Translations under genes and position numbers: made by a program
Notes under the pieces: generated by a model
Databases searched by the model: none
The model's input: only the letters and a program-made list of their open reading frames with translations
Told to the model about the DNA's origin: nothing
Part shown: one piece after another, positions 1,695 through 42,481 of the stretch
How the letters are laid out: each line of letters starts with the position of its first letter
Numbering within the stretch: the first letter of the stretch is position 1
Assembly: GCA_029288425.1 (NCBI GenBank)
Contig: JARIHD010000033.1
Span: forward strand, 1-42,481
Source: Candidatus Saccharimonadota bacterium
GTDB taxonomy: Bacteria; Patescibacteriota; Saccharimonadia; Saccharimonadales; UBA4665
Reading direction: 5' to 3'
DNA: 42,481 bases

Positions 1695-4037
1695 ATGAAC
1701 GGGGCATTCATTGTCATCGAAGGAACAGATGGGTCGGGCAAGGGCACGCAATTTAAACAATTACAGGAACGTTTGCTGGCTGAGGGCTACGAGGTTGCTA
1801 CGTTCGATTTCCCGCAGTATGATCAGCCGTCCAGCTATTTTGTGCAGCAGTACCTGAATGGCAAATACGGTACCATCGAAGACGTGGGGCCGTACACCGG
1901 TTCACTATTCTACGCATTAGACCGGTTTGAAGCTGCGCCTAAGATCCGCCAAGCCCTGAGCGAAGGCAAGGTCGTTTTGGCCAACCGCTACGTTGGTTCG
2001 AATATGGCTCACCAAGGCACTAAATTCCTGCACGCCGAAGAACGCCGCGGTTATTTTATCTGGCTGGACAACCTTGAATTTGAAATGCTGCGTATACCGC
2101 GCCCAACCCTCAGTTTTGTTCTACGTGTCCCGGCCGAAACCGCGCAGACACTGGTCGACCAAAAAACCGCTCGCGATTACACCGACAAAAAGCGCGACCT
2201 GCATGAGGCCGACCTGGACCATCTGCAAAAAGCCGTCGCCGTGTATGATGACATGTGCCAGTTGTTTCCGCGTGACTTCCAGCGCATCGACTGCACCCGG
2301 GGTGATCAATTATTAGACATCAACACCATTCATGATATCGTATGGCAAAAAGTCGAGCCAATGCTGCCGCCCAAACCCGCAGCCGCGCCGGCCGCTTCTG
2401 CTGCCACTACACACAAAAAAGCCGCCAAGACCATTGTGGCAAGTCCTTATGTTACTAAAAATGCCGATGGCACTTACGATATCACGGCCGCCGGAAAGCA
2501 GTTCCTGGATGAAGCCGTCACCAACACCGACAAAAACGTGTACGTCTTTACCGGCAAGCTCGACCCCGTAACCGTGGCCGCCGCCATGGCACGCTTGTCA
2601 CGCCGCGGCGATGACATGCGAATTACACTGCTCGATGAATTTGCAAACAGCTCCGGCAAAGATGAAAAACTCCTGCAACGCATCATCACCGCATACGGTG
2701 ACGATTCCGTCCAGCAGCTGACCGGCGTGCATCTGGTCGTCGAAAACGCCAGCGGCCTTTTGGCCAAGAAACTGGAATGGGGACGCCTGGCCGCATACCT
2801 GGAACAATCCAGTCGCTACATCTTTTTTGACCAAAGGGATCGAAACGGCAAATACCGTTACTATGTTCCCGAATATTTGGACCCGACCGTCAAAGAACAA
2901 TATATTGCGCACATGGACCAGATCTTTGACCTCTATTCCGAAATCGTCCATAAAGCCGAAGCGCACCTGAAATCCGTAACAACCACGCCAAAAGCCGAGC
3001 AGGACGCCGCCTGGCGCAGCGCCGTCAAAGCCCAGGCCTGCGACGCAGCGCGCATGGTACTACCGATTGCCGCGGGCTCAACGGTCGGTATTTTTGCGTC
3101 GGGCCAGGCACTGGAAAGTCTGATCATGCATCTGCTGGCAGATCCATTGCCCGAAGCACGTGCTACGGGCCAAACCATGCTCGAAGAGGCCCGCAAAGTC
3201 GCACCAGCTTTTCTGGAGCGCGCCGACAAACCCGAACGGGGCGGGGCGGCCATCGCTTACCGCGCCAATACCCGCGAAGCCGTAGCCAAACTAGCCCAGG
3301 ACTATCTGCCCGACAACCACGCGCCCGCTACCGATCCCGTCCGCTTGACCGATGTCTGGCCGCGCAACGAATTCGACATCATCCCTGATATTTTGTATGA
3401 ACACAGCAATCTGTCACTCAGTGAATTGCGTGCCCAGGTAGACAGTTGGACCTACAATCAAAAAATAGAGGTCTTGGAAGCATACATCGGCGAACGACTC
3501 AATCGCCGCCACCGACCGGGCCGGGCCCTTGAAAAAATCCACTACAGCTGGGACCTGGTTTGCGACTACGGCACATTCTATGATTTGCAACGCCACCGCA
3601 TCGTCGACGACCTGGAATGGCAGCAACTTACACCGCGCTACGGCTACGACATTCCCAAACTCATCGAAGATGCCGATCTGGTAGAGCGGTTCGAAAGCTG
3701 CTTTGAATTGAGCTTGAAACTGCACAGTTTATTGCAGCAAACCGGCTACGGCCTGGAATCCCAATACGCCACTCTGCGCGGTCACCGCATGCGCTGGAAA
3801 CTGACGTATAATGCCCGTGAAGCGTTCCATTTGCATGAACTCCGCACCAGCCCGCAGGGTCACCCCGCCTACCGCAAACTTGTGCAACAAATGCACGAAA
3901 AAGTAGCCGAAATTCATCCCACACTAGCCGAAGCCATGAAATTCGTGAACCAAGGCGAAGACCCGGAACTGGCGCGTCTGGCCGCGGAACGCTACACCCA
4001 GTACAAGCTCAGCCAGCTCGACTCAAGTCAAAGCTAA
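1695..4037 (+). CDS. Thymidylate kinase fused to tandem ThyX-like thymidylate synthase domains
   Basis: This 780-aa protein joins two consecutive steps of dTMP metabolism. Residues 1-225 are a thymidylate kinase: P-loop GTDGSGKGTQ at 10-19, DRFEA at 76-80, NRYVGSN at 97-103. An Ala/Pro/Lys-rich linker spans about 225-245. Residues 250-780 contain two ThyX-like halves. The first has LEQSSRY at 369-375 and ARMVLP at 452-457 but no RHR triad. The second has RHR at 633-635 and TPRY at 646-649, with a longer gap than the canonical RHR-x7-S motif and Thr in place of Ser, then GHRMRWKL and NAREAFHLHELR (706-717) typical of ThyX C-termini. Upstream dcd makes the dUMP precursor. ThyX methylates dUMP with folate, FAD and NADPH, and Tmk phosphorylates dTMP. 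The stop overlaps the convergent metallopeptidase stop by 4 bp. Kinase call sure; synthase activity inferred. Confidence 0.88.
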   Translation: MNGAFIVIEGTDGSGKGTQFKQLQERLLAEGYEVATFDFPQYDQPSSYFVQQYLNGKYGTIEDVGPYTGSLFYALDRFEAAPKIRQALSEGKVVLANRYVGSNMAHQGTKFLHAEERRGYFIWLDNLEFEMLRIPRPTLSFVLRVPAETAQTLVDQKTARDYTDKKRDLHEADLDHLQKAVAVYDDMCQLFPRDFQRIDCTRGDQLLDINTIHDIVWQKVEPMLPPKPAAAPAASAATTHKKAAKTIVASPYVTKNADGTYDITAAGKQFLDEAVTNTDKNVYVFTGKLDPVTVAAAMARLSRRGDDMRITLLDEFANSSGKDEKLLQRIITAYGDDSVQQLTGVHLVVENASGLLAKKLEWGRLAAYLEQSSRYIFFDQRDRNGKYRYYVPEYLDPTVKEQYIAHMDQIFDLYSEIVHKAEAHLKSVTTTPKAEQDAAWRSAVKAQACDAARMVLPIAAGSTVGIFASGQALESLIMHLLADPLPEARATGQTMLEEARKVAPAFLERADKPERGGAAIAYRANTREAVAKLAQDYLPDNHAPATDPVRLTDVWPRNEFDIIPDILYEHSNLSLSELRAQVDSWTYNQKIEVLEAYIGERLNRRHRPGRALEKIHYSWDLVCDYGTFYDLQRHRIVDDLEWQQLTPRYGYDIPKLIEDADLVERFESCFELSLKLHSLLQQTGYGLESQYATLRGHRMRWKLTYNAREAFHLHELRTSPQGHPAYRKLVQQMHEKVAEIHPTLAEAMKFVNQGEDPELARLAAERYTQYKLSQLDSSQS

Positions 4038-6471: not shown

Positions 6472-6501
6472 TTGACGAGACGTTGGTCAAATTGGTACAA
6501 T
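6472..6501 (+). promoter_or_regulatory. rplJL promoter
   Basis: TTGACG (6472-6477), an 18-bp spacer and TACAAT (6496-6501) predict transcription starting near 6508, right at the 5' edge of the L10 leader structure. The rplK-rplA pair that often lies upstream is absent here, so rplJL is transcribed on its own. Confidence 0.7.
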
Positions 6502-6510
6502 ACCAGGGAT

Positions 6511-6567
6511 TGCCAAAGACAGTAGCGGTCGAGTCTACGGACAAAACTTAAGAATGCTACCGAGGTT
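6511..6567 (+). ncRNA. Ribosomal protein L10 leader
   Basis: The 5' untranslated region carries the conserved L10 leader elements: AAAGACAGTAGC (6515-6526) and GCTACCGAGGT (6556-6566), with GTAGC (6522-6526) pairing to GCTAC (6556-6560). In known cases the L10(L12)4 complex binds this fold to repress its own operon. A second small hairpin follows: GTTACA (6565-6570) with TGTAAC (6577-6582). Identification rests on motif and position upstream of rplJ; a covariance-model search was not run. Confidence 0.75.
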
Positions 6568-6590
6568 ACACTACTTTGTAACGAATATTC

Positions 6591-6624
6591 GCGTCTTTGA
6601 AAGCTTTCAAAGACGCTTTTATTT
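6591..6624 (+). terminator. Intrinsic attenuator in the rplJ leader
   Basis: A perfect 26-nt palindrome starting GCGTCTTTGAA and ending TTCAAAGACGC (6591-6616) is followed by TTTTATTT. It lies between the L10 leader and rplJ, so read-through must be regulated. GTCTTTG in its 5' arm (6593-6599) is exactly complementary to CAAAGAC of the L10 leader (6514-6520), so leader and terminator folds could exclude each other. Confidence 0.8.
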
Positions 6625-6706
6625 GGCAAATCAACAGAGAGATAACGGTAAAACTATATAAAGGTCGAAGGTTTTACCAAAAAGCAAATAACATAAGGGA
6701 ACACTT

Positions 6707-7228
6707 ATGGCTTTAACCAAACAACAAAAAGACGACGTAGTCGCAAAAGTCGCTGAAATGCTGTCATCTTCCAAGATGACCGTTGTTGCCAAATACCAGG
6801 GCACAACCGTAAAGGCTATCCAGCAGCTGCGCCGCGACGCGCGCGACAGCGGCACGAAAGTGCAAGTTGTCAAAAACCGGTTGGTTATCAAAGCTTTGCA
6901 GCAGAACGACACCCTCAAGGGCGTTGACACCAGCGCAATCAACGGCATGCTCCTCTACGCTTTCAACAGTGAAGACGAAGTAGCGCCCGCCAAAGCTCTG
7001 GCTGACTTTGCAAAGGCCAACCCAACCATCGAATTCGTCGGTGCAATCACCCCAGAAGGTGTGTTTGCGAGCGCCGATGAAGTCAAAGCCCTGGCCGCAT
7101 TGCCAGGCAAAAACGAGCTCATTGCTCAGGTTATCGCTACCCTGAACTCACCAGTCAACGACGTTATGAGTGGCCTTTCCGGCAACTTGCACGGCCTGCT
7201 TGACGGTGTTGAAGCGAAAGCCGCTTAA
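6707..7228 (+). CDS. rplJ: 50S ribosomal protein L10
   Basis: The 173-aa product anchors L7/L12 dimers to 23S rRNA at the base of the ribosomal stalk. The N-terminal rRNA-binding domain shows [15 protein letters not shown] (residues 5-19) and [11 protein letters not shown] around 56-66. The C-terminal helix that binds L7/L12 follows [14 protein letters not shown]. Length is normal for L10. The start follows AAGGGAACACTT, a Shine-Dalgarno at usual distance. It is co-transcribed with rplL 20 bp downstream and controlled by the L10 leader and attenuator upstream. Confidence 0.96.
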
Positions 7229-7254
7229 TAACCCTACTGAAAGGAACCATGAAA

Positions 7255-7635
7255 ATGGCTAAAGATTTGAAGAAATTGGCAGAAGAGCTGACCGGCTTGA
7301 CTGTCCTCGAAGTAAACGAACTGAAAAACATCCTGAAGGATGAATACGGCATCGAGCCAGCTGCTGCAGCTGTTGCTGTTGCTGCCGCTCCTGCTGGCGA
7401 CGGCGGTGCTGCTGCTGACGAAAAGGCCGAATGGGACGTTGTCCTGAAAGACGCCGGTGCTCAGAAAGTAGCCGTCATCAAAGCCGTTAAGGACGTTACC
7501 GGCCTTGGCCTTGGTGAAGCGAAAGCTCTTGTTGATGGCGCTCCAAAGACCATCCTTGAAAAAGCTTCCAAAGAAGACGCAGAAAACGCCAAGAAAGCGC
7601 TTGTTGACGCTGGCGCTACTGTCGAACTCGCCTAG
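7255..7635 (+). CDS. rplL: 50S ribosomal protein L7/L12
   Basis: This is the stalk protein that recruits translation GTPases. The N-terminal dimerisation helix, an Ala/Gly-rich hinge ([19 protein letters not shown] region, about residues 36-56) and the C-terminal factor-binding domain with [18 protein letters not shown] and [11 protein letters not shown] are all present. ATG codons at 7249 and 7255 are both possible; AAGGA lies 3 nt from the first and 9 nt from the second. The second is preferred because it gives the usual MAKDLKK-type N-terminus. It is the last gene of the rplJL operon, before a strong terminator. Confidence 0.96.
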
Positions 7636-7655: not shown

Positions 7656-7694
7656 AAAACCGCCCGGGCATACACGCACCGGGCGGTTTTATAT
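7656..7694 (+). terminator. rplJL terminator
   Basis: AAAACCGCCCGG (7656-7667) pairs with CCGGGCGGTTTT (7679-7690) around an 11-nt loop, giving a 12-bp stem followed by AT-rich sequence. The symmetric A and T flanks let it act in both directions, so it may also end the minus-strand array whose last gene stops at 7689. Confidence 0.85.
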
Positions 7695-8312
7695 TGGCGC
7701 CACGACAGGCAGTCCAAGGTCGTGCAGACCTTTACGCCTATCCGGCTCGGCCAAGGCACAGACCATGTTAGTATCGTAGGCAGCAGTCATATACAGACAC
7801 GCCGCTGCAAGCGCCCGATTAGTCAATTCGGGCATATCAGTGTGACGGATGGCCCTGTCAACACTTTCGTCCGAAGGCCAGCGCAGTTCGAAAAATTCAC
7901 CTGGATCAGGAGTATCCTGGAGCGCCAGGCCCGACGCCGCAGGAACCTCCGGTAATAGCCTGATAAGATGCTGCACCCAGCGTCCGGCCGAAGTCGAAAA
8001 ACCGCCTATACCAATATCATAAGCTACACCTAAGTGCGTCAGGACAGAACGCAACGCAACCTGCGAAGCCTCCAAGGCAAGCACTGGATCATGAAATACA
8101 TGCGGCGGTGCATTTTTCAAGCCCCACCCGTCAGCCGCACCTTTCGCCTCTAAAATAGCGGATATATTGCTAACCACCGAATTAATCTCGGCAATACCCG
8201 CCAGTGCTCTAGGGTGATAAAATGGTGTGCTACATACGGGCTCAGGAGCTTCGTTGCTTACTTCAAGTCGCAGGTATGGCGACGACTGAGCACGCCTTAT
8301 ACGTCCGTGCAT
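7689..8312 (-). CDS. Unknown array protein P6 (most divergent member)
   Basis: The 207-aa soluble protein is the last of six consecutive minus-strand genes of similar size. I do not recognise a family. It resembles the others in layout: a short basic N-terminus followed by an apolar strand (MHGRIRRAQSSPYLRLEVS), a helical segment (about 37-60), a central region, and a C-terminal helix ending with DLGLPVVAPI, like the DLGLP/ALGLP ends of neighbours. Its central part is more diverged and membership is tentative. No signal peptide or membrane segment is seen. A TACACT box (8322-8327 on the minus strand) lies 9 nt before the ATG, so it may have its own promoter and a leaderless transcript. Confidence 0.65.
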   Translation of the reverse strand: MHGRIRRAQSSPYLRLEVSNEAPEPVCSTPFYHPRALAGIAEINSVVSNISAILEAKGAADGWGLKNAPPHVFHDPVLALEASQVALRSVLTHLGVAYDIGIGGFSTSAGRWVQHLIRLLPEVPAASGLALQDTPDPGEFFELRWPSDESVDRAIRHTDMPELTNRALAAACLYMTAAYDTNMVCALAEPDRRKGLHDLGLPVVAPI

Positions 8313-8349
8313 AGTACCCGTAGTGTACGATAAAAACGTGTATTTTTAA

Positions 8350-9015
8350 TTAACTTGCACCAACAAGACCAAGCGTGGTCATACCCATTGCCAATTCATC
8401 CGGAGTCATATCGCCCATACCATCCGGACCTGGTGTCCAGTCAGAACAAATGGAACGTTTCAGAAGATTGAAACTCGTTTTAGCCATAAATAGCGTCAAA
8501 TCATCTCTATCTACTTTTGTGGAGTTATCTTCTGCTATCCACATCGTCGTATGCGTCGCTCCACATAGTTGCTGCCCCTTGGCCCACACAAACACAGACG
8601 ACCTCCGTACCGTTTCTTTTCCAGCTTTTCCAGAGTCCCGCTCAGTAATATACACCAACGCATGTCTGCCAAGCCTGTTTTCTTCGTATTTTCCGATGGC
8701 CGTAAGCCTCAAATAGGATAAGCCCAGCGGCAAGCTGGATACATGACGTTTCGCGATACACATGACATCCTCTTGCACCCCATTACGCCATACCATAAGC
8801 TCTTTTATACTCCTAAGAAATAATCCCGCCTCTTGCGCCACCATAGGAGAAGAGTCGGGTTCCACGCGTTCATTGACCGGTTCGTGGACAGGAAATTGAT
8901 AGTGTTCGGAAAACGGTATGATTACCGTTGGAGCCGTTGCATTCCGACGCTCTTCGGGTGTAAGAGGCGGGTGCGATGGCACTAATCGTGGACGCTTTGA
9001 ACAGAACTCAGACAT
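8350..9015 (-). CDS. Unknown array protein P5
   Basis: This 221-aa soluble protein shares the array layout: a basic N-terminus with an apolar strand (SKRPRLVPSHP), a helix FLRSIKELMVWRNG (about 67-80), a beta-rich centre (RHALVYITERDSG followed by SSVFVWAKG), a helix TLFMAKTSFNLLKRSI, and a C-terminus with TPDELAMGMTTLGL that matches the EGEYHRGLTELDLP end of P4. No known domain or catalytic motif is recognised. It lies 12 bp downstream of P4. A TATGAT box (9027-9032, minus strand) 11 nt before the ATG suggests its own promoter with a very short leader. Confidence 0.7.
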   Translation of the reverse strand: MSEFCSKRPRLVPSHPPLTPEERRNATAPTVIIPFSEHYQFPVHEPVNERVEPDSSPMVAQEAGLFLRSIKELMVWRNGVQEDVMCIAKRHVSSLPLGLSYLRLTAIGKYEENRLGRHALVYITERDSGKAGKETVRRSSVFVWAKGQQLCGATHTTMWIAEDNSTKVDRDDLTLFMAKTSFNLLKRSICSDWTPGPDGMGDMTPDELAMGMTTLGLVGAS

Positions 9016-9027
9016 TCGTCCAATCTA

Positions 9028-9771
9028 TCATAATGACGCGGGGAGATCCAATTCTGTCAGACCTCTATGGTATTCGCCTTCGGCAAGGTGGGGAATACCA
9101 TAATGGCGATCCCAGTGTTGTCCCGTAGCCATGCGCACAAAGTTAAACGCAGCAAGGGCCTGTCCGACGCGAACTACTGCGTGGCTGGAATCCGGTATTT
9201 CTTCTAGAATATCTTCGTCTAAAATATGCCGATCACCTTCCGTTACGGCCGGCCGGGTAAGCAACGTTTTTTGATTCGATTCGACAAATGCCGCCGGCCC
9301 CTTTGTATAGAGATCAGAACACTGAAAGGTGAGGAGCTTCATCTTTCTGGCCAAAGTTTTACTATCAGTGCAAACACTGACAGACAAAGCCGTTACGAAC
9401 CCTTCCGAGTGTTTCCGGAAATATCCGGCTGTGCGCATAGCAAGGGGTTGGAATTGCGGCGGGGCGCCTACTTGCCAGGCACCTAGTAGCCGTATCATAT
9501 CACCTCCGGAAAGTGGAATATCGGGCCCGCCCTGAACGCGCATGAGGTGCCCGATACTTTTGGATAGCGCCATTATCTCTTTAACTCCCATGTCAGCTTC
9601 AGGCTGTCCAAACAAGCCGGGGCGCGGCATAAAAACAGGGTAATGGCAATTGGGCAACTTGTTGGCGTCATGCAAAGCGCCAGCAGAAACGGAAGTCGAG
9701 GTGGATTCAGCAGGAACAGAAAGGCCGCCCTGTATCAGCTGAAATGGATGTGGTCGTCTATGTTTTGACAT
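9028..9771 (-). CDS. Unknown array protein P4
   Basis: The 247-aa soluble protein is clearly paralogous to P3: both have a PGLFGQPEAD/PGELFGDPDA motif before a helix, a beta core (ALSVSVCTDS here, TLGVSVHTDR in P3), a VRVGQALAAFNFVRMATGQ helix and an IPHLAEGEYHRGLTELDLP end. P1 and P2 share the last two elements more weakly. The N-terminus MSKHRRPHPFQLIQGGL is basic then apolar, as in all members. No export signal, membrane segment or enzyme motif is seen. A TAAAAT box (9778-9783, minus strand) 6 nt before the ATG fits a leaderless mRNA. Function unknown. Confidence 0.75.
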   Translation of the reverse strand: MSKHRRPHPFQLIQGGLSVPAESTSTSVSAGALHDANKLPNCHYPVFMPRPGLFGQPEADMGVKEIMALSKSIGHLMRVQGGPDIPLSGGDMIRLLGAWQVGAPPQFQPLAMRTAGYFRKHSEGFVTALSVSVCTDSKTLARKMKLLTFQCSDLYTKGPAAFVESNQKTLLTRPAVTEGDRHILDEDILEEIPDSSHAVVRVGQALAAFNFVRMATGQHWDRHYGIPHLAEGEYHRGLTELDLPASL

Positions 9772-9815
9772 ACTTTTATTTTATTACCTCGGCGAGCTTT
9801 GGGGCAGACTAATGG

Positions 9816-10553
9816 CTACGACGTTTCACCAATGAGCGGCAGGCCCAAAGCGGCAATGCCCAGATAGTATTCGCCCTCGCCCAGACGGGGAATATTCGAA
9901 TAAGCGCCATCGCGTTGTCCAAGGGACAGGCGTGCGAAATTAAATGCCACTGCAGCCTGGCCGGCGCGTACTGGATTGTCGCTCGTCAGCGAAAGGCTGC
10001 GTGTATTCGTAGTGCCAAAATCGGGATCCCAATCTTCTTCGACATATTGCCTGGTTATCCAGGCCATGGCCCGCCCGTCCTCTGCGTCAGGGTCGAAACA
10101 GTGCACGTACACGGTTTTGGTACAGGATGCATGCCTGTCAGTATGCACACTGACCCCTAACGTAGCGAACGTACCCGTTTCTCCTATCTTATGACTTACC
10201 CGCATGAGAGGATTAGAAAGGCGCAGATGATGCGGACGATCCCTCCAACTCCGCCAGTCAGCAAGAAGCCCATCCCGATCGGTCCCAAAATGAGTAGTCA
10301 GCAGCTGTTTGACGCCGTAGCAAATGGTCTCTATCTCCGACGCACTTATCCTCGCGTCCGGATCCCCAAAGAGTTCCCCTGGCTGGCTGCAAAAAACTGT
10401 ACGTGCATGGCGGTTAAGATCGTATGCCTGGACTACATCGACCTCACTCAAGTCTTCAGGTGGCTGCGCAAAAGCAGCATCCACACCTTCCAGCGTTGAA
10501 TGAACCACAGATATTTTTCTATGTTTGCCTGTTAGTCTATTATGTTTGCCCAT
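9816..10553 (-). CDS. Unknown array protein P3
   Basis: The 245-aa soluble protein is the closest relative of P4 (shared FG-PDA segment, TLGVSVHTD beta core, QAAVAFNFARLSLGQ helix, IPRLGEGEYYLGIAALGLP end). Its N-terminus MGKHNRLTGKHRKISVVHS is strongly basic, then apolar. AAGG 4 nt before the ATG could be a weak Shine-Dalgarno; no convincing -10 box is placed at leaderless distance, unlike most neighbours. It lies 44 bp upstream of P4 and 75 bp downstream of P2. No domain is recognised. Confidence 0.75.
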   Translation of the reverse strand: MGKHNRLTGKHRKISVVHSTLEGVDAAFAQPPEDLSEVDVVQAYDLNRHARTVFCSQPGELFGDPDARISASEIETICYGVKQLLTTHFGTDRDGLLADWRSWRDRPHHLRLSNPLMRVSHKIGETGTFATLGVSVHTDRHASCTKTVYVHCFDPDAEDGRAMAWITRQYVEEDWDPDFGTTNTRSLSLTSDNPVRAGQAAVAFNFARLSLGQRDGAYSNIPRLGEGEYYLGIAALGLPLIGETS

Positions 10554-10628
10554 CTGGCCTTATTTCCGTTTTGAACTATTATTGCAACAACTTTCAAAAC
10601 GCTATTATATCATATAGTTAATAGAAAG

Positions 10629-11438
10629 TTAATCTTTTTCAAAGCCAGGGATAGGGAGCCCAAGCATCCTCAAGTCGTCCCGCTCTCGCTGCGCTCGGCC
10701 CCTTTCCCACCATTCCTTCCATGGTTCGGTTATCCGGGGTATGTTCAAATTATCAAATACAAAAGGAATCTCGCCATCCGGGACTTCCGGAATATGGCTC
10801 CAGTCCCTTGAATGAAAACCGATCGCATGCCGCAGCATAGAAAAGATAGCCCGAGCCTGATAGACCGTAACCGGGCGTGTTGCGTCGGGTTGCGGCAACG
10901 GCATCATTTCGGTTCCTGCAGGCAAAAAGTATCGGGCCCGTGAGGCGGTCGCAGGGTCCGGCTGTCCAGCTGCAATATTTTTCGGCGCCTCGAAAGTAAG
11001 CACGCTTTGCCAGCGATTTTTGCTCTCGTGGGCTGCTCGCAAGGAGGCGGAAAACTGAACAGCGATACGCTCGGCCGTTTCGTCGTACGTACAACCCACC
11101 AACGGGTGTGAGTCATATAAATAAGGGCTTGCCATGCTCATGTGACGAGGTGGTATCTCGAGTGATTTTTTGTTCAAGTCACCGTGCCGCCGCCTCATGA
11201 GCGCACCCACCGCCGCGCAAAGAATGCGTATATGCGAAGATTCCACCGGGTAGTGCTGCTCCGGCGGGATATTTGTCGGCTCCTTGTAGGGTGGCAGGTG
11301 CTCCAGTGGCGCTACTATAATCTTGGTATCCGCCTTTTGCCAGAAAGGTACGTTATCGGAATCGGACATAGGAGCTACTTCAGCCGATAAGTCCGACACA
11401 AGGTACAGGTGTCTGTTTTGGCGACGGGATTTTCTCAT
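10629..11438 (-). CDS. Unknown array protein P2
   Basis: The 269-aa soluble protein is the sister of P1. They share NIPPEQ-YPV-SHIR, a helix AAVGALMRRRHGD, a WQS-L-F beta core, GQPDPA, and VTVYQARAIFSMLRHAIGF followed by IP and a PFVFDNLNI end. P2 carries an extra Arg/Glu/Trp-rich tail (about residues 229-269). The N-terminus MRKSRRQNRHLYLVSDL is basic then apolar. A TATAGT box (11448-11453, minus strand) 9 nt before the ATG indicates its own leaderless transcript. No family is recognised; there is no signal or membrane segment. Confidence 0.75.
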   Translation of the reverse strand: MRKSRRQNRHLYLVSDLSAEVAPMSDSDNVPFWQKADTKIIVAPLEHLPPYKEPTNIPPEQHYPVESSHIRILCAAVGALMRRRHGDLNKKSLEIPPRHMSMASPYLYDSHPLVGCTYDETAERIAVQFSASLRAAHESKNRWQSVLTFEAPKNIAAGQPDPATASRARYFLPAGTEMMPLPQPDATRPVTVYQARAIFSMLRHAIGFHSRDWSHIPEVPDGEIPFVFDNLNIPRITEPWKEWWERGRAQRERDDLRMLGLPIPGFEKD

Positions 11439-11483
11439 AAAGGCGATACTATATCATAAATTAATCTTTTGCGTAAAAAGATA

Positions 11484-12233
11484 CTAGGGAGACTTCGGTG
11501 GAAGACCAAAAATAGGCTTTTCAAGTAGCTTCAGATCGAGTGTTTCAAATACATAGGGCAGCTCTGTTTCCGGAATAGGAGGAATACGCTGCGGTCCATA
11601 ATCACCGATACCATCCCCGAACCCAATCGCAGAACGCAACATTGAGAAAACAGCCCGGGCTTGATAAACAGTGACCGATTCAGGACCCCCTAGTGATAGG
11701 TCTGGCAATACTTCTTGTCCTGCATCCAGGTAATCTCTAAACCGTACCGCCTTCGCGGGGTCAGGCTGCCCTGGAATTTGAAATTTGGAGGCGCAAAAGA
11801 TCAATTCGCTTTGCCAGCGGTCAAATTTCAGGTTCCCCGTCAGTACGGAAAGGGAGAGGTGCACGCTAACGTCCGTGTCGGTCTCATAATAATTACCACC
11901 AACCCAAGGGCGTGAAGCAGCCAGGTGTCGGTCTGCACCGGGCACATAGCGGGGCGATACTTCCAACATCCGCCCCGCAGGGTCAGCATGACGGCGACGC
12001 ATCAGCAGGCCGACGGCACCGCACAGCGTACGAATATGCGAGGGCTGAACGGGATAATACTGTTCGGGCGGAATATTGGTTGGCCTTACATAAGGTGTGT
12101 CCGACTCCGGACCCAGCATCGGAATAATCTGGGTCATTGCCTTCATATCCGCTTCGGAAAAGCCACTGTCATCACTCGGCGGCAGGTCGGGAACAAGCCG
12201 TAAGCGTCTATTATCGTGGGGTAAATTTCTCAT
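11484..12233 (-). CDS. Unknown array protein P1 (first gene of the array)
   Basis: This 249-aa soluble protein opens the array. Its features in order: a basic N-terminus and strand (NRRLRLVPDLP, residues 8-18), NIPPEQYYPV (about 53-62), helix LCGAVGLLMRRRHAD (about 69-83), a beta-rich core (VSVHLSLSVLTG, then WQSELIFCAS), GQPDPAKA, helix VTVYQARAVFSMLRSAIGF, and a C-terminus with ELPYVFETLDL. The same order occurs in P2-P4. No catalytic signature is visible. TACAAT (12243-12248, minus strand) with TTTTCA 17 bp further upstream lies 9 nt before the ATG, again a leaderless arrangement. Confidence 0.75.
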   Translation of the reverse strand: MRNLPHDNRRLRLVPDLPPSDDSGFSEADMKAMTQIIPMLGPESDTPYVRPTNIPPEQYYPVQPSHIRTLCGAVGLLMRRRHADPAGRMLEVSPRYVPGADRHLAASRPWVGGNYYETDTDVSVHLSLSVLTGNLKFDRWQSELIFCASKFQIPGQPDPAKAVRFRDYLDAGQEVLPDLSLGGPESVTVYQARAVFSMLRSAIGFGDGIGDYGPQRIPPIPETELPYVFETLDLKLLEKPIFGLPPKSP

Positions 12234-12352
12234 GAAGTGCCTATTGTAGCACGGGCTGGCCGCGGTGAAAATTATTATTACGCCAGAGAAAAAACCTTTT
12301 GTGCCGACGGCAGGATTTGGTATACTTAATCTCGTTGTTCAAAAATAAAAAG

Positions 12353-12369
12353 CTGTGGGTTATCCACAG
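12353..12369. promoter_or_regulatory. DnaA-box-like hairpin upstream of a conserved gene
   Basis: CTGTGG (12353-12358) and CCACAG (12364-12369) form a 6-bp inverted repeat with a 5-nt loop. The right half contains a perfect DnaA box, TTATCCACA (12360-12368), and the left half a poor reverse copy. Only one good box is seen, so this is not evidence of an origin; it may be a regulatory site or a small hairpin. Downstream, TTGACT and a TAGTTT or TAAAAT element provide a candidate promoter for the next gene. Confidence 0.35.
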
Positions 12370-12472
12370 TTGGCTACGTATGTTTTGACTTGTTTTGGTA
12401 AACATGGTAGTTTTAAAATTAAGTGTAGAGAAACAAACACTTCTGTGTGACATAAGAGAGACGAAACAAAAT

Positions 12473-12982
12473 ATGGCAGACGTACCAGACAAACAAATCA
12501 AAAGACTGCGAGCACTCATCCAAGAAGCTGAGACAAACCTGGCTGCAGCTACCGAGCTATTAGTAAGTCTGGTCGGTGACGACGAAAAAGTCGCACCCAT
12601 TGCCCAAGATGAAAACATTGGCAAGGTCATAGAAGGTGTATTCGACGGCCAAAATATGGTCGGTTCAGATGGCAAAATGTACCCTGTGCCCGCCAACTAC
12701 GCCAGTAAATCCAAACTCGTTCAGGGCGACATCCTTAAACTCACCATTGCCGATGACGGCACATTCTTGTACAAACAGATCGGACCGATCCCCCGCAAGC
12801 AGGTCGTGGGCACACTCAAATTCGAAAACGGCCATTATTTCGTAGAAGTCGGTACCAAAGAATACCATGTACTACTCGCCAGCGTGACTTATTTTAAAGC
12901 CAAGCCGGGCGACCAAGTCAGTGTCAACATCCCCGAAGACGATGAATCCGCCGAATGGGCTGCACTCGAAGCTGCGCTTTAA
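12473..12982 (+). CDS. Conserved hypothetical protein with coiled-coil N-terminus
   Basis: The 169-aa protein begins MADVPDKQIKRLRALIQEAE. Its first 35 residues form an amphipathic helix or coiled coil. A compact beta-rich domain follows (about 50-155) with VIEGVFDGQNMVG, KMYPVPANYASKSKLVQGD (about 65-83) and a repeat-like IGPIPRKQVVGTL. It ends in an acidic tail EDDESAEWAALEAAL. I have the impression that the PVPANYASKSKLV-type motif recurs in Patescibacterial hypothetical proteins, but this was not checked. An in-frame ATG at 12395 would add 26 residues; 12473 is preferred because the protein-like, charged sequence starts there. Function unknown; a nucleic-acid or ribosome partner is a guess. 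It lies on the opposite strand to the surrounding arrays. Confidence 0.75.
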   Translation: MADVPDKQIKRLRALIQEAETNLAAATELLVSLVGDDEKVAPIAQDENIGKVIEGVFDGQNMVGSDGKMYPVPANYASKSKLVQGDILKLTIADDGTFLYKQIGPIPRKQVVGTLKFENGHYFVEVGTKEYHVLLASVTYFKAKPGDQVSVNIPEDDESAEWAALEAAL

Positions 12983-12991
12983 TCCCGCAAT

Positions 12992-13723
12992 TTATTCAGC
13001 CTTGGATTCGCCGAACCTATGCGGCATTTTATGCGCGAAAGACTCTACCCGGATACGCGCGTTCCTGTAATACAGGGTTGGCTCCGGACTTTTGTGGGGC
13101 TCCATAATAGAGTCCTCGAAACTTATAAGGCCCAAAAAACTAGCGTGCGCCACTGCTTGCGGAGCATTTTTGGCCGCAAGTTTACCAAATAGCGCGTGAA
13201 GTCTTTTATACACGTGACTCAAAGCCTGTTTAGACGATAATTCCGCGGGCGCAAACTGTGCAGCAATCGTCTCGCGGGACATCGCCCATGCCAAACACGA
13301 AAGATAGGTACGAGACTGCGCATCAACTTGCACCTCTTCTGTCGGGACGTTAGGCCGGGAGGGCATACGGAACTTCGGGGGCATATTAAAATCGTGGGGC
13401 ATAAAATGATTTATAACGATACGCGTATCATCGCCCGAGGCGATAGTTGATACATACTTTTCACCCGGTCTCTTTAGATCTCTTTCAAGCAGCAGACCGT
13501 CGTGAACAGCCATAGCAACTGCCCGTGTACGAAGCTCCAAGTCGGACACCCTACCTACCCGCACTATACCTAGATTACTGCCAAGCTCTGCACTAGAGCG
13601 CCCCAAAGTTTTGTTATTAACGCCAAAAGCTTCGCACATCTCTTTTTGCGTGAGAGCATTGGCCGAAGCCTCAAGTATAAAAGCTTCAGGCTCATTAATG
13701 GTGCGATATATTTCTTCAGACAT
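12992..13723 (-). CDS. Putative double-HTH (LuxR-like) regulator D3
   Basis: The 243-aa protein is the most diverged of three paralogues. Its N-terminal half has a helix-turn-helix-like segment (LTQKEMCEAFGVNNKTLGRS, residues 24-43) followed by RTRAVAMAVHDGLLL. The C-terminal half has a second (SRTYLSCLAWAMSRETIAAQ) followed by APQAVAHASFLGLI. Each half resembles a LuxR/GerE module with its closing RAQAVARA-like helix. No receiver or ligand domain is present. It is convergent with the conserved plus-strand gene, with a 9-bp gap between stops. Likely a DNA-binding protein; targets unknown. Confidence 0.6.
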   Translation of the reverse strand: MSEEIYRTINEPEAFILEASANALTQKEMCEAFGVNNKTLGRSSAELGSNLGIVRVGRVSDLELRTRAVAMAVHDGLLLERDLKRPGEKYVSTIASGDDTRIVINHFMPHDFNMPPKFRMPSRPNVPTEEVQVDAQSRTYLSCLAWAMSRETIAAQFAPAELSSKQALSHVYKRLHALFGKLAAKNAPQAVAHASFLGLISFEDSIMEPHKSPEPTLYYRNARIRVESFAHKMPHRFGESKAE

Positions 13724-13833
13724 AGCGGTCTCAGGATTTCAGAATGAAAAATTAACTTGTCATTTACGATTTAGTGTTAAGAATACTATAAAATATCATG
13801 AATTTATTGATACTGCAAATGTCTATGGGGAAC

Positions 13834-14568
13834 TTACGGGAAATCAAACGATGTTTCAAGCGGAATCAGGCGGTGAGCAAACCGTACAAACGGAATAGCC
13901 GCCCCTTGCTCATTTACAATAGGCTCGGGCGGCTCCTTTAAATGAGGATTCAATACGCGTGGATCTATTGCAAGTGCTCCCCAGAAACTTGCATGTGCGA
14001 TGGCTTGAGGGGCATCCAAGGCGTCCAATAGCGTGTACGTACGCTCAAGCTCTTTTTTCGTACGCGAATACGCCTTTTCTGGGTCATCAGAATAGGGGTA
14101 CAATTCACTTATTTTTCGCACACTCATACCCCAGGTAGCACATGAAAGATAAGTAAGTCTTTCGGGGGTGAGCACAATATCGTCCTCGGTCAATGTTCCG
14201 CGGCTTAGCTGTATGTAGTTCATGTTGTAACGGGGAAGATTGGCGGCGGCGGTAATCTTGATGAGCGAGTCGCCGGTGTCGCTCATACTGCAATCATATG
14301 GGACGCCGGGAATCTTTTCATCTCTTGACCTAAGTAATCCTCCGGCGATCAGCATAGCAGTGGCGCGCTTCCTGGCACCCCCGATGCCAGCGATTCCGAG
14401 CGCCTTGTATGTTTTGCTTATTTGCGACTTAGCCGTATTGGGGGTCAAATAAAATATCTTACCGGCCGTCTCGTGGCTATGTCCATTTGCGACCGCTTCG
14501 ATCAACCGCGCACCACGCCAATCTATATGTTTTACCTCTTTCACGGCACTGTCACTTCTTATCAGCAT
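13834..14568 (-). CDS. Putative double-HTH (LuxR-like) regulator D2
   Basis: The 244-aa protein has two LuxR-like helix-turn-helix units. The first is LIEAVANGHSHETAGKIFYL, continuing through NTAKSQISKTYKALGI to RATAMLIAGGLL. The second starts LTPERLTYLSCATWGMSVRK and ends APQAIAHASFWGAL. It aligns end to end with D1, including EKIP, YIQ and DPRVL-P. A GTG at 14544 aligns exactly with the first Met of D1 and may be the true start; the upstream sequence AGTGACAG is shared with D1. No sensor domain. It probably acts as a DNA-binding regulator, perhaps of the adjacent P array (inference). Confidence 0.7.
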   Translation of the reverse strand: MLIRSDSAVKEVKHIDWRGARLIEAVANGHSHETAGKIFYLTPNTAKSQISKTYKALGIAGIGGARKRATAMLIAGGLLRSRDEKIPGVPYDCSMSDTGDSLIKITAAANLPRYNMNYIQLSRGTLTEDDIVLTPERLTYLSCATWGMSVRKISELYPYSDDPEKAYSRTKKELERTYTLLDALDAPQAIAHASFWGALAIDPRVLNPHLKEPPEPIVNEQGAAIPFVRFAHRLIPLETSFDFP

Positions 14569-14595
14569 TTATCATCGTGGATGCATGCGCAGTAC

Positions 14596-15291
14596 TTATG
14601 TTTGTGCTGAAGGGAATCGATGAGCATATCTTTCAAACGGAATAGTCACACTATTTTCAAAAGCAAAGGGTTGTGGTGGTTCGAGGATCGTGGGATCGAG
14701 TACCCGAGGGTCGATGGGTAGAGCGCCCCAAAGATGCGCATGGGCGATAGCCTGCGACCCATTTACGGCGTCCAATAGGCTGTAGGTCTTCAACAGATTT
14801 TGCTTAGCATGGCGATAAGCACCGTCCGGATCCTTGCACCAGGGATGCAGCTCGCTTATTCTTTTGACGCTTACACCCCACATCGCATAAGAAAGATAAG
14901 CAAGTCTGACGGGGCTGAGGGTTATACCCTCTTGACCTGCCGTGCTCCTGCAGGGCTGAATGTAGTCGACATTATAGTGGGAAGAATGGCTACTTTCTCT
15001 AATTTGAATTAAAGCACTTTCGTCGGCCGCCATTGTAGGGACGTAAGGCTCAAAAGGAATCTTTTCATCCGTTGGCTTGAATAAACCTCCGGCGATCATC
15101 ATGGCCACGGCCCGCCTCCGGGGACTGGGCATTCCAGAAATGCCCAAATCCATATATAACCACTCAGCCTGCTTTTTAACAGTTACCCGTGTCAGATAAA
15201 AAATCTTTCCTGCGGAGTCATAGCTATGACCGTTCGCGAGCGCTTCGCCCACTTGAGCGCCGCGCCGGCTAATAGATCTTGCCTTTATCAT
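14596..15291 (-). CDS. Putative double-HTH (LuxR-like) regulator D1
   Basis: The 231-aa protein carries two LuxR/GerE-like segments at about residues 10-72 (VGEALANGHSYDSAGKIFYL onward) and 124-192 (LSPVRLAYLSYAMWGVSVKR onward). Each ends in an Ala-rich helix (RRAVAMMIAGGL; SQAIAHAHLWGAL). Known LuxR-type regulators have one such C-terminal unit; here the whole protein seems to be two. It is divergent from dnaX. TATAAT on the minus strand near 15330 gives a promoter with about 30 nt of leader. It is 27 bp upstream of D2, so D1-D2-D3 may form a unit. Confidence 0.7.
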   Translation of the reverse strand: MIKARSISRRGAQVGEALANGHSYDSAGKIFYLTRVTVKKQAEWLYMDLGISGMPSPRRRAVAMMIAGGLFKPTDEKIPFEPYVPTMAADESALIQIRESSHSSHYNVDYIQPCRSTAGQEGITLSPVRLAYLSYAMWGVSVKRISELHPWCKDPDGAYRHAKQNLLKTYSLLDAVNGSQAIAHAHLWGALPIDPRVLDPTILEPPQPFAFENSVTIPFERYAHRFPSAQT

Positions 15292-23947: not shown

Positions 23948-23972
23948 AAAAGAGGCCGTTTAGGCCTCTTTT
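23948..23972. terminator. Bidirectional terminator between the cysS operon and the permease operon
   Basis: AAAAGAGGCC (23948-23957) pairs with GGCCTCTTTT (23963-23972) around GTTTA, followed by GTTT on the plus strand and preceded by A-rich sequence. It can terminate both convergent operons. The minus-strand permease gene ends inside it. Confidence 0.88.
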
Positions 23973-25102
23973 GTTTGGGGAGCGGAATGACCCGTAGTAG
24001 CCGCCACATATGTTTTTGGTTCGATAATTTTTTTGCGGCGCAGATAGTCAAGTGTCAGGATGCACAGACAGCCCGCCACTGGAATGGCAACCAAACCGCC
24101 AAAGATACCGCCAAAGTTGACACCGATAATAACCGACACAAACACAAGCAAAGGGGACATATTGGTCGAATTAGCCTGAATCCGCGGTTGCACGAGATAG
24201 TTTTCGATTTGCTGGTACAAAATGTAGTAGCCCAGCAAGATAAGCGCCGCAACCGGTGACGTAAACAGCGCCACTACCGACACAATCACCGCCCCAATAG
24301 TGTGCCCGACCATCGGAATAAGGCCACAAATAAACACAACAACCATCATAGCGATCGGATAGCTGACATCTAAAATGACGAGTGCCGGCAAAATGAATAT
24401 CGCGGCCAAAGCAGCCAGCAGTACCTGGCCGTTCACATAACCCTTAACCACCTTATACATATCAAGTGACAGTTTTTCGGCGCGTTCGTGCTGGTCATCC
24501 GGGATCATATCTTTAAACAGGCGTAACCAGCGCGGGCCTTCGACCAGCATCATAAAAGTCAGTACCAAAATGGTAAGTACCGAAAAAATACTGCTGCCGA
24601 CTTTTCCCACGGTTGAAACCGCCGTACCGGTCGCACCCTTAAGCCGTTGACCGAGTTCGTCTGAAAAATCTTGGACTTGTGATTCCAAATTGTAGCGGTT
24701 AATGAATTTGCCGATGTCACTGTTTTCGTCTCTGGCTTGCTGCACCAAACGCGGCGCGGCACTAATAAAGCTACTGGTCTGGCGCACCAAAGGCGGCACG
24801 ATACTGGTCAAAAAGCCGCCGAGCAACAAAATAACGACCAAGAACGAAATAATCGTGGCCGCTGCGCGACTATTGCGGCGCTTACCCGGCAACCGCCGAC
24901 TAATCCAGTGCACCGGAGCATTGAGAGCGAGCGCCAAAAAGAACGCCGTAAATATAAGGATTAAGGCATGCGACGCTTGTTTGACCGCGGCAATGCCAAG
25001 CATTGTAACCACCACCAGCAACAGCACGCGAATCACGGTCCGATTGGAAATCGTGATCTCTACCTCTGACGGTGCTTTTGGTTTGCGCGAAAAGAAAGCC
25101 AT
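23960..25102 (-). CDS. AI-2E family (PerM/UPF0118) membrane transporter
   Basis: The 380-aa protein has the family layout: paired N-terminal helices (VIRVLLLVVVTMLGIAAV; ALILIFTAFFLALAL), a third helix with AAATIISFLVVILLLGGFL, a soluble middle with amphipathic helices, and the conserved C-terminal GLIPMVGHTIGAVIVSV with further helices and PRIQANS. Members move small molecules or ions; substrates vary and the AI-2 label is not a prediction. It is the last gene of the hydrolase-GT4-GT4 unit. An AATAAT box lies 9 nt before the ATG and may give it a separate leaderless start. Confidence 0.88.
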   Translation of the reverse strand: MAFFSRKPKAPSEVEITISNRTVIRVLLLVVVTMLGIAAVKQASHALILIFTAFFLALALNAPVHWISRRLPGKRRNSRAAATIISFLVVILLLGGFLTSIVPPLVRQTSSFISAAPRLVQQARDENSDIGKFINRYNLESQVQDFSDELGQRLKGATGTAVSTVGKVGSSIFSVLTILVLTFMMLVEGPRWLRLFKDMIPDDQHERAEKLSLDMYKVVKGYVNGQVLLAALAAIFILPALVILDVSYPIAMMVVVFICGLIPMVGHTIGAVIVSVVALFTSPVAALILLGYYILYQQIENYLVQPRIQANSTNMSPLLVFVSVIIGVNFGGIFGGLVAIPVAGCLCILTLDYLRRKKIIEPKTYVAATTGHSAPQTKEA

Positions 25103-25119
25103 CTAGGTTGTATTATTGC

Positions 25120-26265
25120 CTAACTTCGCCGCTTATGCAACGCTTCGTCGTATACAACCATGATCTCATCGGCGACATTGGGTACGTCATACTGGCGGAC
25201 GAACTGCTGCTGCCATTCGCGGGCTTTTCGGCGGGCTTCTTTATTGTCCATGTAGTGCTGTATCTTTTCGGCCAGACGCTCGTCATTCAAAGGATCGAAT
25301 AGCGCTTCAGGCCGCTCGCCCAGCACACTGGCATAGCCGGGATTATTACCCGCCAGCACCACACCGCGCGATGCGGCCATGGCTTCCAGCAGCACAATGC
25401 CGAAACTTTCGCCACCCGTACTGGGATACACCGCAATATCGGCGGCGGTCAGATATTTGGGCTTATCCTCTTCGCTTACAAACCCGACAAAGTCTACCAG
25501 GTGCGACATTCGGTAGTTTTTGACATACGCCTTTAGCTCGGCCTCGAGTGGTCCGGTCCCGCAAATAACCACCTTGACTTTGTCGGCCGGCGGCAGCGTT
25601 TCGGCTTCAAAAATACGGCGGATGGCCCGCAGCAGATACTGGCAGCCTTTGCGGTCGACTAATCGTCCCAGAAACATAATATTCAGCGTGTGTGCATACT
25701 GCGCCACCGGTTTTTGGTCGTAAAACGGGCCGAGCCGAAGGGTGTTTGGCACGATAGCGCTTTCTACACGATAGGTTTCCCACGAAAAATCCTGTGCGAC
25801 CTGCGATACACTCATAATTTCGTCGACCCGAGCCAGTGACTTACCGGTCACGGCACGCAGCAGCATATTGGCGAAATGCACCATCCTGGATTGCGGTGCA
25901 ATATGGAATGTCGCCACCACGCCTGTCTGCGGTCCGACAGCTTTTATCACACGCCCGCCCAACATCGGACTGTACGGCATCTGAATATGAACAATATCGA
26001 ACTCTTCGTGCGCCAGTAGTCGTCGGATTGCACGCTTCGAAGCCGGCAGGGGAATTGACATCCGATTGCCATTAAACCTCACCTTGATGTTTTTCGCCAT
26101 GCTATGAATATTCGGGATGTCGGTGCGCGTAGTTTCGCCCACAATGTAATGTACGTCATGTCCGCGCGATGCGAACCATTGGCCCAGCGTCAGCACATAC
26201 TGCTGCACTCCGTCGGTTTTGTCGAGTGAATCATCGAGTACGAATGCTATTTTGTAGCTGTCCAT
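25120..26265 (-). CDS. GT4-family glycosyltransferase (PimA/PimB-like), downstream copy
   Basis: The 381-aa cytosolic GT-B enzyme transfers a sugar from a nucleotide donor. It has an N-terminal glycine/acceptor loop (TDGVQQYVLTLGQWFASRGH) and the donor-domain signatures LGRLVDRKGCQYLL, ICGTGPLEAEL and ESFGIVLLEAM (an E-x7-E motif). It is adjacent (16 bp) to a second GT4 of almost the same length, and both carry NNPGYAS or DNPGYAS, which suggests an old tandem duplication. The context with a hydrolase and membrane protein suggests glycolipid synthesis, as with phosphatidyl-linked glycosyltransferases; the acceptor is not known. Confidence 0.9.
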   Translation of the reverse strand: MDSYKIAFVLDDSLDKTDGVQQYVLTLGQWFASRGHDVHYIVGETTRTDIPNIHSMAKNIKVRFNGNRMSIPLPASKRAIRRLLAHEEFDIVHIQMPYSPMLGGRVIKAVGPQTGVVATFHIAPQSRMVHFANMLLRAVTGKSLARVDEIMSVSQVAQDFSWETYRVESAIVPNTLRLGPFYDQKPVAQYAHTLNIMFLGRLVDRKGCQYLLRAIRRIFEAETLPPADKVKVVICGTGPLEAELKAYVKNYRMSHLVDFVGFVSEEDKPKYLTAADIAVYPSTGGESFGIVLLEAMAASRGVVLAGNNPGYASVLGERPEALFDPLNDERLAEKIQHYMDNKEARRKAREWQQQFVRQYDVPNVADEIMVVYDEALHKRRS

Positions 26266-26281
26266 GTGGGGTTCCCGTTAA

Positions 26282-27424
26282 TTATTCGGTGGGTTTCTTT
26301 TTACCGCCGTGCTCTTTGAGCGCGTTTTTGTAGATTTCTTCATATTGGTCAACAATGTGGGCATAACTGTACTGGCCAATTTCGTCGGCAGCCCAATCGC
26401 GCCACAGTTTGCGCAGGTCGTTTTCGTGCAATAACAAGTTTAGGCGACGGGCAAATTCGGCATGGTGCTGCGGATTAACGAGCGAAATTGCGCCAAGACC
26501 TTTCATAACACTGGCGTACCCGGGGTTATCTCCAGCGACCGTCACCAGGCCGCAGGCCATGGCTTCAAGCAGCACAATGCCGAAACTTTCGCCGTAGAGA
26601 GCAGGCGAACAGTACAGGTCGGCCGTGCGCAGATAATGAATCTTCTCCTTTTCGGTGACAAAGCCAATGAATTCGACATTCTGCAGACCAAGTTCGGCGG
26701 CCAGCGCCTCCAGTTTGGCACGGTCAGGACCATCGCCGGCGATAATGAGGCTGGTGTCCGGGCTCATTTGCGACAACTGCCTAAAAGCATGCAGCAAGTG
26801 TTTTACTCCTTTACGCTGCTCCAGACGGCCAACATAGAAAATGGTTTTTGTTTTTTTGCCGTCGCTGCGGCGCGCCGGCGCTTTGTAGCGTGCAAGGTCG
26901 ATGCCGTTTGGAATGAGCGCCACCGGCTGATCAGTCAAGCTGCAGACATATTCGGCAGCAGCTTCGGATGGCGCCGTAAAAGTGTCGATGTATTTGAGGA
27001 CTGATTTAGTGTAGGGCGTAACGACTTTTATAATCGTACGCGTCATCATGCTTTCGGGCAGTTTGGCGTGGAAAGTGGCAACGTTTACACTGTCGGAACG
27101 GCTTAGGATCTGTGCGCTGATCATTGGAATCCATGGTTCATGGAAATGCAAAATATCAAACTGGTGTTCGGCTAAAATCTGGTCGATCTTTTCGTTTATG
27201 CCAGCCGAAACCTGGATGGTGGTGTGCGTAGGCGAGTTAAAATCGGTTGCCGTGCCGACAAAGATAATTTTTTCGTTCGGGTCGACTTCGAAATCTTTAG
27301 GTTGAGGCGTAATGACATACACATCATGACCACGCCGCGACAGTTCGGCCTGTAGGGCAAAGATAATTTCTTTGACACCGCCGCCCTTGGCGATACTGTA
27401 TGGGCAAATCAAGCCAATTTTCAT
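26282..27424 (-). CDS. GT4-family glycosyltransferase (PimA-like), upstream copy
   Basis: The 380-aa GT-B enzyme starts MKIGLICPYSIAKGGGVKE, typical of PimA-like enzymes, with RRGHDVYVITP next. The donor-domain motifs are FYVGRLEQRKGVKHLL, IAGDGPDRAKLE and ESFGIVLLEAM. The C-terminus is Lys-rich (EHGGKKKPTE). TATAAT preceded by TGC (27435-27440, minus strand) lies 10 nt before the ATG: an extended -10 promoter with a leaderless start inside the operon. It likely works in series with the downstream GT4. Confidence 0.9.
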   Translation of the reverse strand: MKIGLICPYSIAKGGGVKEIIFALQAELSRRGHDVYVITPQPKDFEVDPNEKIIFVGTATDFNSPTHTTIQVSAGINEKIDQILAEHQFDILHFHEPWIPMISAQILSRSDSVNVATFHAKLPESMMTRTIIKVVTPYTKSVLKYIDTFTAPSEAAAEYVCSLTDQPVALIPNGIDLARYKAPARRSDGKKTKTIFYVGRLEQRKGVKHLLHAFRQLSQMSPDTSLIIAGDGPDRAKLEALAAELGLQNVEFIGFVTEKEKIHYLRTADLYCSPALYGESFGIVLLEAMACGLVTVAGDNPGYASVMKGLGAISLVNPQHHAEFARRLNLLLHENDLRKLWRDWAADEIGQYSYAHIVDQYEEIYKNALKEHGGKKKPTE

Positions 27425-41281: not shown

Positions 41282-41284
41282 GCT

Positions 41285-42313: not shown

Positions 42314-42364
42314 TAATTGCAGTATATCATGCCGATATGGCCCCGAGGCCCGTTGTAGGTCTGA

Positions 42365-42370
42365 TATACT
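42365..42370 (+). promoter_or_regulatory. Extended -10 box of the divergent right-end gene
   Basis: TGA-TATACT lies 10 nt before the ATG at 42381. Together with the minus-strand box at 42321-42326 it forms a divergent promoter pair. Confidence 0.5.
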
Positions 42371-42380
42371 TTGCACGTAG

Positions 42381-42464
42381 ATGAAAGAAAGCACCAAGAG
42401 CGAAGATACAGAGCAAGTAGCCAACGCTAGACAGCGACGAGCCCTAAAGGGGGCTGCACTATGT
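42381..42464 (+). CDS. Start of an unknown gene, cut by the adapter
   Basis: Twenty-eight codons (MKESTKSEDTEQVANARQRR, then ALKGAALC) read through to the adapter. The charged N-terminus turning apolar at the end suggests a protein with a following membrane helix. Nothing more can be said because the biological sequence stops at about 42464. Confidence 0.45.
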
Positions 42465-42481
42465 CTGTCTCTTATACACAT
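42465..42481. other. Nextera/Tn5 mosaic-end adapter sequence
   Basis: CTGTCTCTTATACACAT is the reverse complement of the Tn5 mosaic end used in Nextera libraries. It is not genomic. Its reverse translation produces the MCIRDR prefix seen on artefactual proteins. Confidence 0.95.

Follow-up and report, generated by a model that had tools for sequence, protein, structure and literature searches.

Orphan tandem expansions at bacterial integration hotspots are the described systems closest to the locus considered here, a six-gene array in a stretch of 42,481 nucleotides from a Candidatus Saccharimonadota bacterium (the whole of this stretch is referred to as the window). Like such expansions, the array consists of same-strand tandem paralogues, is found in one lineage only and lies in a variable gap of a conserved gene block. 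Unlike them, it belongs to a Patescibacterium with a reduced genome, has no integrase, tRNA or edge repeats and is placed between genes for ribosomal proteins and genes for replication. Bacterial T4SS effectors of the XVIPCD type, which have conserved C-terminal targeting domains, offer another comparison; the array proteins are similar to these in their conserved C-terminal module, variable N-terminal part and lack of a signal peptide, but differ in that they match no library, contain no toxin domain and carry the module apparently within the fold. Literature searches on Saccharibacteria brought up no relevant account of tandem families specific to a lineage, or of leaderless promoters. The array represents a real new gene family encoding new proteins, and its kind, a lineage-specific accessory expansion, is already known. 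Saccharibacteria genomes are small, and an unshared family of six copies would be unexpected ballast unless useful.

Positions 7689-12233 are filled by six related minus-strand genes (P1 to P6), predicted to encode proteins of 207-269 aa and all starting with ATG, just where the initial annotation had placed them. Neighbouring genes are spaced by 12-75 nt and all six reading frames are intact across 4.5 kb. The array and the features around it are as follows.

6495-6631: L10 leader in the left flank (Rfam).
6707-7635, plus strand: rplJ and rplL, the conserved and syntenic left flank; among the 20 nearest relatives, most have an rplL with 81-87% identity.
7656-7690: terminator-like bidirectional hairpin, AAAACCGCCCGG-loop-CCGGGCGGTTTT, at the point where rplL and P6 converge (sequence reading).
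7689-8312, minus strand: P6, 207 aa, the most diverged member and a probable paralogue (global alignment and C-terminal module).
8350-9015, minus strand: P5, 221 aa, a diverged paralogue (global alignment and C-terminal module).
9028-9771, minus strand: P4, 247 aa, paralogue of P3 (ORF call, BLASTP).
9816-10553, minus strand: P3, 245 aa, paralogue of P4 (ORF call, BLASTP).
10604-10632: promoter of P3, TTAACT-17-TATAAT with TG, about 50 nt before the ATG and not leaderless.
10629-11438, minus strand: P2, 269 aa, paralogue of P1 (ORF call, BLASTP).
11484-12233, minus strand: P1, 249 aa, with which the array begins, paired with P2 (ORF call, BLASTP).
12360-12368, plus strand: DnaA box TTATCCACA, which lies 5' of the OB gene and bounds the variable gap on the right.
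12395-12982, plus strand: gene of a conserved protein with a coiled coil and an OB-like part (OB), 73-89% identical in 60 relatives, which parts the two gaps.
12992-13723, 13834-14568 and 14596-15291, minus strand: H1-H3, another tandem family of orphans, located in the OB-dnaX gap (BLASTP).

Sequence comparison makes the paralogy of P1 to P4 certain. By BLASTP, P1 and P2 are 46% identical across 245 aa (E 1e-59) and P3 and P4 30% identical across 205 aa (E 2e-14), which upholds the two clear pairs of the initial annotation, and the pairs are in turn joined through their last 50 residues by C-terminal links (P2-P3, E 3e-4; P2-P4, E 1e-3). BLASTP of P5 and P6 against the other array proteins gave nothing significant, and an HMM of P1-4, scored locally, gave them 3.8 and -0.9 bits, respectively, which is decoy level. 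For these two proteins the local test was replaced by a global-alignment test against P1-4, which takes account of how all elements are ordered and was controlled with 300 shuffles of each protein itself and with 74 unrelated natural proteins of like length. P5 reached z 5.0 and P6 z 5.3, with 0 of 300 shuffles and 0 of 74 natural proteins scoring as high in either case; the neighbouring H1-H3 proteins scored as unrelated in the same test. Most of the family signal was found in a C-terminal module (VxxQAxxxFxxxRxxxG ... IPxxxExE ... LxLP), which alone gave z 8.5 for P5 and z 3.6 (p 0.002) for P6. Because of the global-alignment and C-terminal signals a family of six is accepted here, in which P5 is a well supported fifth member and P6 a probable sixth, the weakest and least certain of all. 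The earlier proposal of six paralogues is thus secured for P1-P4 by BLASTP and for P5 by global alignment and softened to probable for P6. A conserved N-terminal targeting motif was considered and is not claimed, its p of 0.014-0.035 against shuffles becoming 0.22 against random natural N-termini.

Between P1 and P2, 41% of first, 34% of second and 69% of third codon positions differ. Since synonymous sites are saturated while second-position divergence is lower, the codon comparison shows purifying selection on the protein sequence of this pair. Codon choice in the P and H genes departs from that of core genes, a trait also seen among the window's other accessory genes.

Searches of five libraries agreed with the previous failure to recognise a known domain, as the P family had no match in Pfam, NCBIfam, PHROGs, PADLOC or PDB. 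Nothing above cut-off was found for P1-P6 among the curated families of Pfam or NCBIfam, including any confident match to a housekeeping family, and no PADLOC model of a known anti-phage defence system was matched by the six proteins. A phage origin received no support from PHROGs, from viral contigs (searched for the P family) or from phage records (searched with P2), and plasmid records searched with P4 held no relative. A search across relatives, as the initial annotation had suggested, took in three overlapping samples, with 93 genomes from within the family, 393 from the order and 380 from the phylum, and the P family was absent from all of these apart from one chance-level stretch; this weak match (E 0.0035, genome G508, 1 of 380) contains two internal stops and was rejected. 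GTDB contig scans gave no P-family match either; these scans, like the single-query searches, are sensitive to close relatives alone. A permissive-threshold search of the array's own genome returned exactly the six P genes. Restriction to this genome means here that the P family is unseen outside a genus that is otherwise unsampled.

An AlphaFold2 model of P1, built from four sequences (pLDDT 66, pTM 0.66), places a disordered region at residues 1-47, a helix at 64-82, five strands within 89-169, a helix at 189-202 and a short helix at 222-231. The Foldseek check that had been proposed, run on this model, gave no significant fold match in the PDB and viral libraries. The top matches, all folds with a single-layer five-stranded sheet plus helix, were hemF, the F-actin capping protein CapZ and ssRNA phage coat proteins (E 0.015-0.1; TM-scores about 0.18-0.28 by query length); they share with the P1 model an antiparallel sheet packed on helices at a non-significant level, give no real match to P1 and were set aside. 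The P6 model (pLDDT 37) has a similar order of elements that is unreliable and uninformative. Across the six proteins, the best conserved regions are the helices, the first strand and the tail and the least conserved are strands 2-5, with conservation values of 1.0-1.4 for helices and tail and -0.2 to 0.4 for strands 2-5. Along these four strands, conserved residues alternate with variable ones (p 0.035 for P1-4 and p 0.10 for all six), as expected if one sheet face is buried and the other exposed. No transmembrane or signal-peptide-like stretch was found in the P proteins, the highest 19-residue hydropathy being 0.9-1.5.

Most of the P genes had also been credited with leaderless promoters of their own. 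With a -10 box defined as having at most one mismatch to TATAAT and lying 6-11 nt before the ATG, boxes were found for P1 (TACAAT, 9 nt before the ATG), P2 (TATAGT, 9 nt, with a -35-like TTTACG 18 nt upstream of the box), P4 (TAAAAT, 6 nt, with GAGGT 14 nt before the ATG) and P5 (TATGAT, 11 nt), that is, for four of the six P genes as compared to 2.8% of random ATGs; P6 has a weaker -10 (TACACT, 9 nt). The position of these motifs suggests leaderless transcription, so that the claim can be kept for these four genes and perhaps for P6, and has to be given up for P3, which has a leadered promoter. Among 759 ORFs from the window and its relatives (loci L042-L061 and L068-L107), the -10 box also peaks 6-11 nt before the ATG; 18.5% of the genes present in at least 10 genomes have a box at this distance versus 4.0% at the control distance of 20-25 nt. 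The rate in the P array is somewhat higher than that of the lineage, yet of the same kind, and because leaderless promoters are a general habit of the lineage they are no evidence of special expression of the P genes. Their frequency in this lineage matters for gene calling and for the design of expression constructs.

Further analysis of the locus showed that the array fills the first of two gaps in a block with the order rplJ, rplL, gap, OB gene, gap, dnaX and dnaB; downstream of dnaX and dnaB, the right flank continues with the gene of a 412-aa protein, ybaB, recR, a DHH phosphoesterase gene and cysS. The OB protein, which has no match in Pfam or NCBIfam, probably starts near 12473, giving 169 aa. 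The order rplL-OB-dnaX is kept in 60 relatives. In 44 of these the rplL-OB gap measures 70-365 nt and contains no genes, and in the other 16 it measures 588-5251 nt; 21 of the 60 have an OB-dnaX gap longer than 450 nt. Insert genes of different relatives have no mutual similarity at E 0.001, and none of the inserts belongs to the P or H family. Most gap genes elsewhere were rejected as P or H homologues; the gap protein with the top P score (locus L054, z 3.1, one of 25 tests) is membrane-anchored and looks unrelated by sequence. Because the first gap is variable in relatives and the second holds another orphan tandem family, the array is regarded as accessory cargo at a hotspot. The rplL-OB-dnaX region thereby represents a newly noticed recurrent cargo site in this Saccharimonadales family and a place to seek accessory genes. 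By sequence reading, the rplL-OB cargo of relatives appears to include a MoxR/VWA-type pair (L081), a sigma factor with a ParB-like protein (L082), homologues of the gene pair at 39749-42481 of the window (L051) and an OmpR-type DNA-binding protein (L100).

The edges of the array can be compared with an empty site in one relative (locus L043, genome G003), in which a hairpin stands right after rplL and is followed at once by TTATCCACA and the downstream promoter. The P array sits exactly between the equivalents of these elements, the hairpin at 7656-7690 and the box at 12360-12368. The DnaA box is found upstream of the OB gene in 47 of the 60 relatives, with about one expected by chance, and typically lies some 60-110 nt 5' of the aligned OB start, which suggests DnaA control of a clamp-loader/helicase (OB-dnaX-dnaB) operon or an origin nearby. 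The idea of a chimeric assembly was rejected, since the P and H arrays are separated by the conserved OB gene and the sequences on either side correspond to those of relatives. No recombinase-like ORF was found in 7689-15291, nor any integrase, transposase or clear flanking repeats, and because nothing of this sort marks an insertion, a vertical origin of the array with loss elsewhere would be compatible with its edges. Natural transformation with homologous flanks is known in cultured Saccharibacteria (PMC10633639), and may be a plausible entry route for the array.

In the second gap, H2 and H3 are 50% and H1 and H2 31% identical (BLASTP). The H proteins gave weak in-register matches to three LuxR/GerE chains (E 0.5-1.0), and H1 matched a phage sigma factor family in PHROGs (E 6e-4); there was no Pfam GerE match. 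H1-H3 are therefore probable LuxR/sigma-4-type helix-turn-helix proteins, possibly with two such motifs each, and no relatives of them were found in the 393 genomes of the order.

The account of the P array that we favour, and consider rather probable as a whole, is that of a lineage-restricted accessory family whose founder settled in a recurrent gap, was duplicated in tandem and has been kept under purifying selection. One founder gene would have entered the stretch that separates the rplL terminator from the DnaA-box promoter region of the OB-dnaX-dnaB operon, or have arisen there, and would then have been duplicated repeatedly in place, the copies being retained and diverging under purifying selection. 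Each gene could be transcribed from its own promoter, as is usual in the lineage, and each product is most likely soluble and cytosolic, with a predicted layout in which an N-terminal arm, short, basic and disordered, and a linker precede a domain of a helix, a five-stranded antiparallel sheet and a helix. The helices, the tail and one face of the sheet would form a common frame, and the other face, which appears to vary from copy to copy, is the leading candidate binding surface. That the partners of this surface come from the host, from phages or from mobile DNA, so that the array would be cargo for interaction or conflict, is guessed from the company found at the hotspot and is doubtful. 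It is quite unlikely that the P proteins are a new fold family in which a copy-diversified sheet face on a constant helical frame supplies a small set of recognition surfaces for molecules of the host or of phages, perhaps delivered or put to use while the cell attaches to its host.

Anti-phage or anti-mobile-element defence would suit a hotspot that, by sequence reading, holds ParB-like, sigma-factor, MoxR/VWA-like and orphan genes in relatives, as well as the separate promoter of each P gene and the fast sequence divergence among the copies; however, no PADLOC, PHROGs or Pfam match and no nuclease, NTPase or other effector motif was found in the six proteins, and we regard this function as unlikely. 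There is little probability that the proteins are effectors sent by a T4SS into an actinobacterial-type host and recognised through their C-terminal module. Although the strongest common element of the family is indeed C-terminal, the P1 model predicts it within a folded domain and not as a free tail, and to our knowledge neither a substrate signal nor a signal model has been described for this secretion system. Export would be possible given the TraG/VirB4-like ATPase in the same genome (contig C84), and the T4SS of a cultured relative is essential and may export proteins (PMC10633639), but the array lies away from the T4SS genes, which are on that contig, and neither a toxin domain nor an enzyme domain was found in the P proteins.

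The P and H arrays could also form one regulatory module, with H proteins binding DNA and P proteins as ligand- or partner-binding companions, given that both are orphan tandem families seen in this genome only, that they share the minus strand and occupy neighbouring gaps of one block, and that the H proteins are similar to the helix-turn-helix domains of LuxR/GerE proteins and sigma factors. We consider this distinctly improbable, as the two families have no common sequence, a conserved plus-strand gene stands between them and the gaps are used independently in relatives, so that co-occurrence in one genome may be chance. A neutral expansion, in which an orphan gene was duplicated at a tolerant intergenic site and its copies are decaying with no strong selected role, would be consistent with the shorter and much diverged P5 and P6 and with a site that tolerates many unrelated inserts; decaying genes would, however, lose both the six intact frames over 4.5 kb and the third-position bias of the divergence, which makes this reading very unlikely.

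Among the other genes of the window, three consecutive 380-aa genes on the minus strand (23960-27424) retain their order in almost every relative, and the one at 23960 encodes an AI-2E family transporter. On the plus strand, thymidylate kinase and ThyX thymidylate synthase domains are combined in one 780-aa ORF at 1695-4037.
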